Assembly: GCF_009741975.1 (NCBI RefSeq)
Contig: NZ_WPCF01000018.1
Location: 1 to 33,137 of the forward strand
Reading direction: 5' to 3'
From: Halobacterium sp. CBA1126
GTDB taxonomy: Archaea > Halobacteriota > Halobacteria > Halobacteriales > Halobacteriaceae
Length of the DNA: 33,137 nt
Position 1 is the stretch's first letter, and the number at the start of each line of letters is the position of its first letter. The notes under the pieces were generated by a model. It had not been told where the DNA came from. It searched no databases and worked only from the letters and a program-made list of their open reading frames with translations. Below, one piece after another: positions 10,365-13,947 of the stretch. The position numbers and the translations under genes were made by a program.

Positions 10365-10389
10365 GTCTGGCGAGCCGTATCCGTCAACG
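10365..10389. repeat. 25-bp direct repeat, copy 1 (regenerated end of the hub gene)
   Basis: Identical over 25 bases to 11177-11201. On the minus strand it encodes LTDTARQ followed by ACC TAA (Thr-stop), the same ending as the hub protein. It lies just downstream of the lipoprotein gene, so the lipoprotein segment is bounded by two copies of the hub gene's 3' end. Confidence 0.9.
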
Positions 10390-10400
10390 CCCCCGCCCCC

Positions 10401-11099
10401 TTATTCGGTCTCGAAGTGAATCGTGGCGTGCTCCTGAGTGCCGTACGACTCCATCACGAACTCCATATCAGCCGTATACTCCGCCGCAAACACAATCCGA
10501 TACGACTCCTGCGTGTTCGGCGGAAGCACCTCATCCTCCCCAAGGATATCCGACCAGGCGGCATTCCGCATCGCCTCATCATCTGGCCGCGGCGACTGCG
10601 ACCCCAGCGCATGCATCTGCCACTGCGAATACCCCAACCGGATCGAATCCCCCGGATTCGAGACGGCTGTGAACTCGACAACCACCCACTGTTCGCCCTC
10701 CGGCGCTGCAAGTGATCCGTCCTCGGTCGGGATCTCGTCACGGAGCTGGTACGCATCAACGCGGACCCGGAGGTCGGTCCCATCCACGGTTACCTCGCCG
10801 TACTCCTCAAGGCCAACATAGACATCCTCCGGCGCGGCCGTGGTTGTTGGGGCTGCCGTTGTCGACGTCGGTGTTGGTTGGGTGGTCGTCGCTGTTGGTG
10901 TCTGTGTTGGTGCGTCAGTCGTCGGTGCTGCTGTTGTTGTCGCCGTCGGCGTCGGCGTCGGCGTCGGCGTCGGCGTCGGTGTCGCTGTTGGTGTCTGTGT
11001 TGGCGCCTCAGTCGTCGATGTTGTTTGGGTGGCTGGGCTACCGCCACTGCAGCCGGCTAACACAAGGCACAGACAGACTGCGAGGAGTGTCCATCGCAT
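10401..11099 (-). CDS. Lipoprotein with Thr/Pro linker and DUF4352-like domain
   Basis: A 232-aa secreted lipoprotein. From the ATG at 11099 it has a signal peptide MRWTLLAVCLCLVLAGC with lipobox LAGC (Cys17). Residues about 18-88 are a Thr/Pro/Ala-rich linker with simple TP repeats, a likely O-glycosylated stalk. The C-terminal about 140 residues resemble DUF4352 (EGEQWVVVEFTAVSNPG), an extracytoplasmic immunoglobulin-like fold. It has its own TATA box and lies between 25-bp direct repeats, the marks of a moron. A role in superinfection exclusion at the cell surface is inference. Confidence 0.85.
   Translation of the reverse strand: MRWTLLAVCLCLVLAGCSGGSPATQTTSTTEAPTQTPTATPTPTPTPTPTPTATTTAAPTTDAPTQTPTATTTQPTPTSTTAAPTTTAAPEDVYVGLEEYGEVTVDGTDLRVRVDAYQLRDEIPTEDGSLAAPEGEQWVVVEFTAVSNPGDSIRLGYSQWQMHALGSQSPRPDDEAMRNAAWSDILGEDEVLPPNTQESYRIVFAAEYTADMEFVMESYGTQEHATIHFETE
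10941..10980. repeat. Hexanucleotide tandem repeat in the lipoprotein linker
   Basis: GTCGGC units are repeated about six times on the plus strand; on the minus strand they encode the PTPTPTPT part of the linker. Similar longer blocks (GTTGGTGTCTGTGTTGG) stand on each side. Copy number is likely to vary by slippage without changing the reading frame. Confidence 0.8.
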
Positions 11100-11120
11100 A
11101 TCCAAACGCACCGATGCAGC

Positions 11121-11138
11121 CCGTATAAAAGTATACGA
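11121..11138 (-). promoter_or_regulatory. TATA promoter of the lipoprotein gene
   Basis: The minus strand reads CGTATACTTTTATACGG, an AT island in GC-rich surroundings. Its TTTATA lies about 25-30 bp before the ATG at 11099, the spacing expected for a nearly leaderless archaeal transcript. It gives the lipoprotein expression independent of the late operon. Confidence 0.7.
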
Positions 11139-11172
11139 CAGTGACAAGACACCGCGCCACAGTCCCAGCGAG

Positions 11173-13947
11173 TCACGTCTGGCGAGCCGTATCCGTCAAC
11201 GTCCCCTGCAACTCCCCAACAACATCCGCCACCGTCCGCCCGAGCCCAAGCTCAAGCTGCACCTGGCCGCCCTCCCCAGTCACCGACTCGATCCGCAAAC
11301 TCCCGACGTCGGGGAGGCCGTCGAGGTCGAGGGCGCGCGTGAGCTGGTAGCCAATACGGGATCCCGCGAGGGAGGCCGACGCGGAGATAACCGGGCCCTC
11401 GGATTCGTCGACAATGTAGAGGGCGGCTTGTTCGGCTTGACTCTCACTAATCACCTGGGGGAGATCCCGGATTGCGGGCCGGCCCGCATCCCCGACTGCG
11501 TAGTATTCCCCGACGGTTTGGCGTTCATAACTAATCTGGTACGTCTCCCCCTGCGTCAACGCTGAGCCAAGGTCCGGCATCTTGATCTCCCCCAAGACGT
11601 GATTCACCACGTAGTCCGTGCCACGTTCGTACTCGACCCCCTCGCTGTCGGTGACGGTGGTTGACCCGACGACAATCGGATCATGCAACAACTCGACGTT
11701 GTTGATGTCCGCCGTGAACTCCTCGCCCTCAACGGTGTAGTTGCGGCCATGGACGACTGCTGCGGTCGGACTCGCCTCGACGTCCTTCTCAACACTCCAA
11801 TCGACGAGGTCCTCGTTGAGGTCGTGGGTGGGGCGTTGGCCGGGCCGCGTCACCACAACCTTCAACCCCTCGCTCTCAGCGTATTGGAGTTCCCAGATGA
11901 GGTTCCCGCGATCACAGAGACTCGAGATCGCGTCCGCGACCGTCGCGTCGACGGTTTCGCTCACCCCCGGACTGGAGATCGCATCATACTCGACGGTGAG
12001 CGCATCCAGCGTCTGGGGCCGCGTGCGGTAGGTGGTGACGCTCGTCTCCACGTCCGTCTCCGGCGACGAGGCGTCGACGCCACTGAGTGTCGCTCTTGCG
12101 AGGAAGCTGCCGGTGCTGGATTCGAAGTCCGCTTCCAGCGTCGCCGTTCCCGCCTGGGTTGTCCAGGTGTCGCCGTTCATCGACAACCCCAGCCCCTGCC
12201 CATTGCTGGTGCTGGACACCACTGCCTCGAGGCGGCCGCCAGTCGCCCGCCTGAGTGGATCCACCTCAAAGTCGACGCCGATGGGCGCGTACAACCCCGG
12301 TGGCCCATCCAGTTTATTGTTGGCATCGAGGGTGTTCGAGAAGTCCGATGCGTTCCAGTAGCGTTTGTCGTAGACAACCGCGCAGTCGATAATCCCCGAG
12401 CCGTCGGCGTCCCTGTACCCGCCGTCAACGTACGACAGCGACACGGTATGTGAGCCGGCTGTGAGCCCGCCAAGGTTGTCGGTCTCCCCGGCGACCGCCC
12501 AGGACACAGTCCGCGTTGCAGCACCAGCATCCGTATTCCCCGCAATCGTCGGCGTCGCCCCAAACATCCCACCGTCAACATGCAACTGCGCGAACCCCAC
12601 GCCATCTAACGCCAAGCGCACCGCAACCCCCACCTCCCCCTCCGGAATCCGATACGGCAACTCGATTGACGCGGCCGTCGACGTGTTCAGCGCGAGTTCG
12701 ATGGCTTCGCTGCTCGTCCAATTCTGCGTCGTCTCCCCAACCAACTTCGACGTGGAGAAGGCTTGCGGGGGGAGGATCCACGCCGTCTGCCGCGGGACGA
12801 TACTCCCACTGCCGGTCGCCTCATGTGGCCCCCCGCTCCGTGGCACCACGTCAAAATCCTCGACGGTGTCGAGGGTGCGCCACGGTTGGTTCGCGGTGGC
12901 CGGCGCCGCGTCAACCTCGACGGTGTAGTCTGTGTCTTGGGTGAGAATAGTCTCGATGGCGGTCTCGACGCGGACGTCCGAGAAGTCGTGGTTGGCGCGC
13001 TCTTGGAGTCGACTCCCACCCCTCGTGGTGAGCGTCACGTGATCCGGCTCCGGACTGATCTTCGCGACCGACTCAATCGGGACACGGACGCCATGATGGT
13101 AGGCGCGGACGGTGGCGTCCTCCCACGCCTCAGACTCAACCCAGTGGTTGTCCGCGGGAACGGGGATGTCGAGTTCCGGCCGCGCATTCAACCGCGGTTT
13201 CGGCGTCGGCGTATCGGCGAGTCGGAGCGTGCGCGTGCGACCAGTCTCCGGATGATCAAGCTCGATATGCCAGCCCCGCGGGGGGACTGACTGGGTGGAC
13301 TCGGGGTGTGGGTCATCAAGTCCGGGCGTCGACACAGACGACGTCCAGTTGGAGGTTGCCGCCGTGTGTTCCGTATAGGCTTCGACGCGGTAGCGGTAGG
13401 TGCGGCCGGGGGAGGCGGTGTCGTCCGTGATTGTGATCGCGCCCTCGCCGGCGTGTGGCCCACGCTCGGTAACGACACGGCGGTCCTGCCACTCGCCGTT
13501 GAGTTGTTCGTCGCGCTCGAGGCGGAACCCCGTCTCGTTGTCAGCGTTGTCCTGGGCATCTACCTGGACGCTCGTCGCGGCGACCGAGCCAATGGTGGGG
13601 TTGGCGGCGCCCGGGAACTGCGTAACGATGCTGACTGGCTCGGTCCACGCGCCAGTCCGATGCTCGGTCTCCGAGCGGATGCGGACCTCGTACTCCTCAC
13701 CGTCCTCGCGGCCCGTGAATATCGTCTCGATGGTGCCCGATGGGGCGTCGTCTGCGGAGATGACCTGTTCGTCGTAGCCGACCGCGTTCGAGTCCCACGA
13801 CGACTGCCCAGTCTCCCTGATTTGGATGCGGTAGTCGCCGTTGTTGAGAACGTCGGGGGTGCTGACTGCGACCTCGTCCTCGACGCCGTTGCCGAGGGTT
13901 GGTTGCTGGGCGTCCGGGAGTTGGGTTGTGAAGGATGCGTAGGCCAT
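11173..13947 (-). CDS. Tail hub/baseplate protein with N-terminal fibronectin III domains
   Basis: A 924-aa structural protein. Residues about 15-225 contain two FnIII-like repeats (DYRIQIRETGQSSWDS, then TGFRLERDEQ with RTYRYRVEAYTEH). The middle (about 230-600) is beta-rich and may be a carbohydrate-binding or jelly-roll part. The last about 300 residues (ADAISSLCDRGNLIWELQY, DYVVNHVLGEIKM) resemble a tail hub of the gp27/siphovirus type, with a long Asp/Thr-rich edge. It is the last gene of the main tail block. The stop at 11173-11175 is inside sequence duplicated at 10361-10389. Confidence 0.75.
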   Translation of the reverse strand: MAYASFTTQLPDAQQPTLGNGVEDEVAVSTPDVLNNGDYRIQIRETGQSSWDSNAVGYDEQVISADDAPSGTIETIFTGREDGEEYEVRIRSETEHRTGAWTEPVSIVTQFPGAANPTIGSVAATSVQVDAQDNADNETGFRLERDEQLNGEWQDRRVVTERGPHAGEGAITITDDTASPGRTYRYRVEAYTEHTAATSNWTSSVSTPGLDDPHPESTQSVPPRGWHIELDHPETGRTRTLRLADTPTPKPRLNARPELDIPVPADNHWVESEAWEDATVRAYHHGVRVPIESVAKISPEPDHVTLTTRGGSRLQERANHDFSDVRVETAIETILTQDTDYTVEVDAAPATANQPWRTLDTVEDFDVVPRSGGPHEATGSGSIVPRQTAWILPPQAFSTSKLVGETTQNWTSSEAIELALNTSTAASIELPYRIPEGEVGVAVRLALDGVGFAQLHVDGGMFGATPTIAGNTDAGAATRTVSWAVAGETDNLGGLTAGSHTVSLSYVDGGYRDADGSGIIDCAVVYDKRYWNASDFSNTLDANNKLDGPPGLYAPIGVDFEVDPLRRATGGRLEAVVSSTSNGQGLGLSMNGDTWTTQAGTATLEADFESSTGSFLARATLSGVDASSPETDVETSVTTYRTRPQTLDALTVEYDAISSPGVSETVDATVADAISSLCDRGNLIWELQYAESEGLKVVVTRPGQRPTHDLNEDLVDWSVEKDVEASPTAAVVHGRNYTVEGEEFTADINNVELLHDPIVVGSTTVTDSEGVEYERGTDYVVNHVLGEIKMPDLGSALTQGETYQISYERQTVGEYYAVGDAGRPAIRDLPQVISESQAEQAALYIVDESEGPVISASASLAGSRIGYQLTRALDLDGLPDVGSLRIESVTGEGGQVQLELGLGRTVADVVGELQGTLTDTARQT
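11177..11201. repeat. 25-bp direct repeat, copy 2 (3' end of the hub gene)
   Basis: This is part of the hub gene, encoding its last residues LTDTARQ plus most of the final Thr codon. It is identical to 10365-10389. The segment 10390-11176 between the two copies contains only the lipoprotein gene and its promoter. Confidence 0.9.

Follow-up and report, generated by a model that had tools for sequence, protein, structure and literature searches.

The exact direct repeat that encloses a lipoprotein gene downstream of a tail-protein gene in this haloarchaeal DNA is probably a scar that was left when two related viruses recombined at the edge of the late (structural) module. The window, i.e., the whole 33,137-nucleotide stretch that was analyzed, is a contig of a fragmented haloarchaeal draft assembly (209 contigs), and it also holds an integrase gene (94-1419) as well as terminase, portal, and tail genes. 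Comparison with viral relatives revealed that the window matches one of them up to the end of the lipoprotein gene and another one beyond it, and that leftover tail-gene ends of various lengths occur at the same junction elsewhere.

A duplicated tail-gene end around a lipoprotein gene

The sequence GTCTGGCGAGCCGTATCCGTCAACG (25 bp) is present in two identical, directly repeated copies separated by 787 bp; when extended, the repeat covers 35 nt with 91% identity (10360-10394 and 11172-11206). No further copies with up to three mismatches were found elsewhere in the window, the genome to which the window belongs contains these two copies only, and the repeat did not arise in any of 100 shuffled sequences. 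The right copy is part of the tail gene, while the left one consists of the 3' end of that gene without the remainder and starts within ~10 nt of the lipoprotein stop codon (Table 1). The initial annotation had reported a perfect 25-bp repeat around 787 bp with a lipoprotein gene and its own TATA box, both copies encoding LTDTARQT and a stop codon (TGA in one copy, TAA in the other), and the sequence bears this out. Over 33 positions, only 3 differences separate the left copy from the right one (P = 0.19 for allelic origin), so the window alone does not demonstrate that the remnant stems from another allele. Shufflon-like alternative tail ends were also considered and dropped, because the window remnant is just 10 codons long and its protein sequence is near-identical.

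Table 1. Features of the window and tail-gene remnants in other loci (for the latter, positions are distances downstream of the resident tail gene)
Feature	Position	Strand	Description
Small one-helix membrane protein gene, convergent	10210..10350	+	With the remnant, collinear with L011
Left copy	10361..10393	-	Hub 3'-end remnant, 11 codons including stop, GALTDTARQT-TAA; contains 10365-10389
Lipoprotein gene (cargo), 232 aa	10401..11099	-	Signal peptide, LAGC lipobox, Thr/Pro-rich linker; 94% identical protein in L010
TATA box TTTTATA of lipoprotein gene	11124..11130	-	25 nt before ATG; same in L010
FN3-containing tail protein gene ("hub"), 924 aa	11173..13947	-	Intact, ends GTLTDTARQT-TGA; fn3, phrog_18315
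Right 25-bp copy	11177..11201	-	Functional 3' end of tail gene
L113 remnant	15 bp	Same as tail gene	~47 codons; cargo absent
L127 remnant	304 bp	Same as tail gene	12 codons + stop
L063 remnant	430 bp	Same as tail gene	15 codons; two small membrane genes in between
L137 remnant	0.5 kb	Same as tail gene	~54 codons, internal stop
L128 remnant	2.3 kb	Same as tail gene	151 codons; genes for 186 aa and 511 aa in between

The tail protein gave profile matches to fn3 and phrog_18315. Its closest named viruses are Graaviviridae (CGphi46, Humcor1, and BJ1), with homologues at 31-34% identity, and the homologue encoded by ORF24 of HRTV-DL1 was detected in the virion (PMC10544981). The label "tail hub" is likely to be appropriate for this FN3 protein.

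The lipoprotein gene, on the minus strand, is the one convincing gene between the two copies, and no recombinase gene was found in the 787-bp insert. The listed open reading frame (10401-11147) begins at TTG, and the ATG at 11097-11099 is a better start. The spacing between this ATG and the TATA box fits a leaderless haloarchaeal transcript, and the gene appears, judging by these motifs, to have a promoter of its own. The C-terminal domain of the protein is predicted to be all-beta by a low-confidence model (pLDDT 51) that is too uncertain for a fold search. Searches for homologues found none in phages and gave one weak match among plasmids. The family also occurs on a haloarchaeal chromosome (39% identity) and on plasmid-like contigs, which makes a cellular origin likely; the lipoprotein is probably a moron of cellular descent. 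Our guess is that it may alter the host surface, for example by excluding other viruses. The Ltp-type superinfection-exclusion lipoproteins are likewise virus-encoded surface lipoproteins, and their resemblance to the protein of the window is a functional analogy only (PMC3952083).

Two relatives that match the window on either side

Two IMG/VR contigs, L010 and L011, encode tail-gene products with 82%-83% protein identity to that of the window. A degenerate search of IMG/VR for the tail-gene end returned nine loci, two of them relevant and the others matching by chance. In L011, the tail gene ends with a single 25-mer, the lipoprotein gene is absent, and a convergent gene for a 43-aa membrane protein ends 7 bp past the tail-gene stop, i.e., the site is empty. 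Compared with L011, the lipoprotein gene of the window is thus inserted between two adjacent genes, as befits a moron, and a site with one copy is also what is expected of a site-specific element. Both the prediction that relatives lacking the lipoprotein have a single copy and the description of a moron-like cassette inserted at the tail-gene end, made from the window only, are supported by this contig.

The window remnant and the convergent membrane gene are collinear with L011 (85% over 139 nt). On the other side, the tail gene and the lipoprotein gene are collinear with L010 over 3.5 kb: downstream of its tail gene, L010 has the spacer, promoter, and lipoprotein gene that are found in the window. 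There is no second copy in L010, its genes after the lipoprotein differ from those of the window, and past the lipoprotein stop the two sequences have only TAAG in common. A relative with the lipoprotein and without the repeat, which the initial annotation had named as evidence against its own proposal, therefore exists. The last 30 nt of the tail gene are almost unchanged among the window, L010, and L011. Because it is collinear with L010 on one side and with L011 on the other, the window looks like a join of both with a 10-codon overlap in the tail gene; L010 and L011 are only 78%-84% identical relatives of the window, and the actual parents were not found.

Synonymous divergence between the window and L010 is much lower in the lipoprotein gene (dS = 0.17) than in the tail gene (dS = 0.58; Fisher P = 1.5e-10). 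According to a change-point fit, the tract that was shared recently begins 214 nt ahead of the tail-gene stop (support from -265 to +17); it extends to the lipoprotein stop codon, beyond which the similarity is lost. These values and limits indicate that the lipoprotein gene moved recently and took up to ~90 codons from the end of the tail gene along with it.

In the scenario that we favor, an L010-like block of hub and lipoprotein genes would have been fused to an L011-like hub gene within its final codons, with the convergent neighbor kept. The upstream crossover was probably homologous and inside the tail gene: recombination in the homologous 3' part of this gene would have brought in the hub end and the lipoprotein, and the far side would have been sealed in the last codons of the resident hub by a junction that needed hardly any homology or none. 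The outcome would be an intact new hub gene and an intact neighbor, separated by a 3' piece of the old hub gene that no longer serves any purpose, and no recombinase would be required. The two short repeats would now permit loss of the lipoprotein by ordinary recombination, giving an L011-like site.

Downstream of the lipoprotein gene, L010 contains ~350 nt without a clear gene (L010:9550-9900), in which an inverted repeat TTAACCAACA...TGTTGGTTAA is found. A similar pair, GTCTTAACC...GGTTAAGAC, is located directly past the tail gene of L043.

Remnants of the tail gene in other loci

We compared 59 distinct loci that contain a tail-gene homologue and enough downstream sequence. Remnants of a tail-gene 3' end, downstream and on the same strand, were present in six of them (the window and five others), with lengths of 10, 12, 15, ~47, ~54, and 151 codons. 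Weak tail-gene-end matches in L040 (a 52-aa ORF after the hub) and L065 were left out of this count. When the same queries were run upstream of the gene end, nothing scored better than 0.036, compared with five downstream matches at ≤0.002. As a control, other gene ends gave matches in 11 of 451 cases versus 5-6 of 59 for tail-gene ends (P = 0.008-0.03), and most of the control matches are, by our reading, shared FN3 domains, paralogous pilins, or CRISPR repeats. Remnants are enriched at the tail gene, an observation that rests on few cases.

The structures found in other genomes, some on megabase contigs (L127 and L128), speak against an assembly artefact that would have joined strains with and without the lipoprotein. 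The fragmented state of the draft assembly could raise this suspicion; however, the join between the lipoprotein stop and the hub remnant is unique, so that it cannot have arisen from a k-mer common to both repeat copies, and of all the explanations considered we regard this one as the least credible.

Genes other than the lipoprotein lie between the two tail-gene ends in L063, L128, L137, and possibly L127, as had been predicted for some relatives. Between the remnant and the resident tail gene, synonymous changes are more frequent than random mutation would produce in L063, L127, and L128 (P = 0.003, 0.005, and 0.0003, respectively), and each of these remnants has therefore probably evolved within a working gene of another virus. 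When relatives are compared in pairs, the similarity of their DNA often breaks off within 0-7 bp of the tail-gene stop codon. Taken together, the variable lengths, the probable allelic origin, and the case without cargo fit leftovers of displaced tail genes after block exchange and do not fit attachment sites.

The same data bear on a site-specific element, for which the hub 3' end would be a restored attachment site and the viral integrase would act in trans. The restored gene end, the empty site in L011, and the integrase gene of the window are all compatible with such an element. However, the 787 bp carry no recombinase, none of the inverted repeats found is a terminal pair of the transposon or MITE type at the insert ends, L010 has no second copy, and the remnants of relatives vary in length and diverge as alleles do; we consider this origin very unlikely. 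The proposal of a small mobile element landing in a fixed site is thus not upheld, given remnants of 10 to 151 codons, several diverged alleles, and one locus free of cargo. Of the two routes suggested for its movement, homologous exchange agrees with the data, whereas integration at a fixed site, which would leave a constant core and duplication length, does not.

We also asked whether the second copy could be a conserved functional DNA site, such as a terminator or a regulatory site of the convergent gene, unrelated to any insertion. Indeed, in the window and in L063 a convergent gene has its stop codon ~4-10 bp away from the remnant. However, each remnant resembles its own hub family at the coding level, a common DNA motif is not shared by the remnants, a convergent gene is missing from this position in L113 and L137, and the L137 remnant contains an internal stop, which makes a functional site highly improbable.

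A closer competitor is a cassette flanked by hub ends, which would serve as the sites of homologous recombination when it passes from virus to virus, such that a two-copy donor could give its cargo to any one-copy virus, precisely and repeatedly. A cassette that carries its own hub end and recombines homologously would leave nearly the same structure as the scar. The two copies in the window with the empty site in L011, the recent transfer of the lipoprotein together with the hub 3' end, the near identity of the final 30 nt in the window, L010, and L011, and a published mycobacteriophage parallel (Island3/Brujita; PMC3029335) all speak in its favor. In contrast, the single copy in L010, remnants whose length and occasional lack of cargo show that the flank is not a standard unit, and the shortness of a 25-bp homology argue against it, and we think it unlikely. 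A broader version, somewhat speculative and on balance doubtful, is that tailed viruses of haloarchaea use the tail-gene 3' end as a permanent port of exchange, at which cargo is traded with tail-gene-end homology as a handle and two-copy states are active intermediates. If so, lipoproteins, small membrane proteins, and a large putative fibre would be gained and lost by ordinary recombination.

Known parallels and the occupants of the junction

The recombination scar that we favor has one published counterpart. Island3 differs from Brujita by an added gene (gene 68), with ~60 bp of the 3' ends of both genes duplicated and one copy in the relative, and recombination at the short repeat, in either direction, was proposed (PMC3029335). 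The window shares with it the duplication of the upstream gene's 3' end past the inserted gene and the single copy in a relative. The published case concerns a single event in bacterial viruses, in which the reading frame of the inserted gene itself ends with the repeat; in contrast, the remnant described here is outside the cargo gene, and scars of varied length recur after one tail gene. The structure as such is therefore not new, and it is the recurrence after one archaeal-virus gene that adds interest; a limited literature search found no description of such scars for haloarchaeal viruses. Phage morons (described in PMC3029335) resemble the window in that an extra gene with its own promoter lies between genes that are adjacent in relatives, but they do not by themselves imply a duplicated gene end. 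Likewise, tailed phages show boundary-sequence mosaicism (cited in PMC3029335), where gene ends mark the limits of similarity and the junction has a short conserved sequence. The leftover end seen here, in contrast, probably comes from an allele that was displaced, and its length is not constant, as would be expected if one side of the join had required little homology.

What we describe is ordinary phage mosaicism, yet recurrent at this junction. Such a scar is a readable fossil of the trade in accessory genes among tailed viruses, since the 3' end that stayed behind would reveal which allele was displaced and locates one of the crossovers with a precision of a few bases. That such scars recur after one gene suggests that mosaic recombination in the style of bacterial phages operates in archaeal viruses too, and it shows where.

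The slot after the tail gene has other occupants as well. Unrelated lipoprotein genes, on either strand, are found there in L047, L065, and G033 (L041). A membrane protein of ~190-260 aa, often with a PDLWR-type motif, fills the slot in L038, L042-L046, L062, L064, L065, L068, and L076, and a partial second C-terminus of the slot membrane protein, perhaps a further scar, is present downstream in L038 and L110. In L128, a CRISPR-like array starts directly past the remnant, from ~2.9 kb after the tail gene; its repeat unit reads as FNPTRVLLER / FQQDPCWVEA.

Finally, a conserved element of ~36 nt, ACCGATGANCGCCCGC...GGCGGGCGTGAGG, was noted past the tail-gene stop in L045, L062, L065, L068, L076, L114, and L119, with looser versions in L039 and L070. 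No Rfam match was obtained in the seven sources scanned, L045, L062, and L065 among them. The element is located 10-22 nt from the tail-gene stop (88 nt in L076) and could fold into a GC-rich hairpin; a mini-ORF of 9 codons within it reads M(T/I/S)(A/V)R(x)ARRA-stop.
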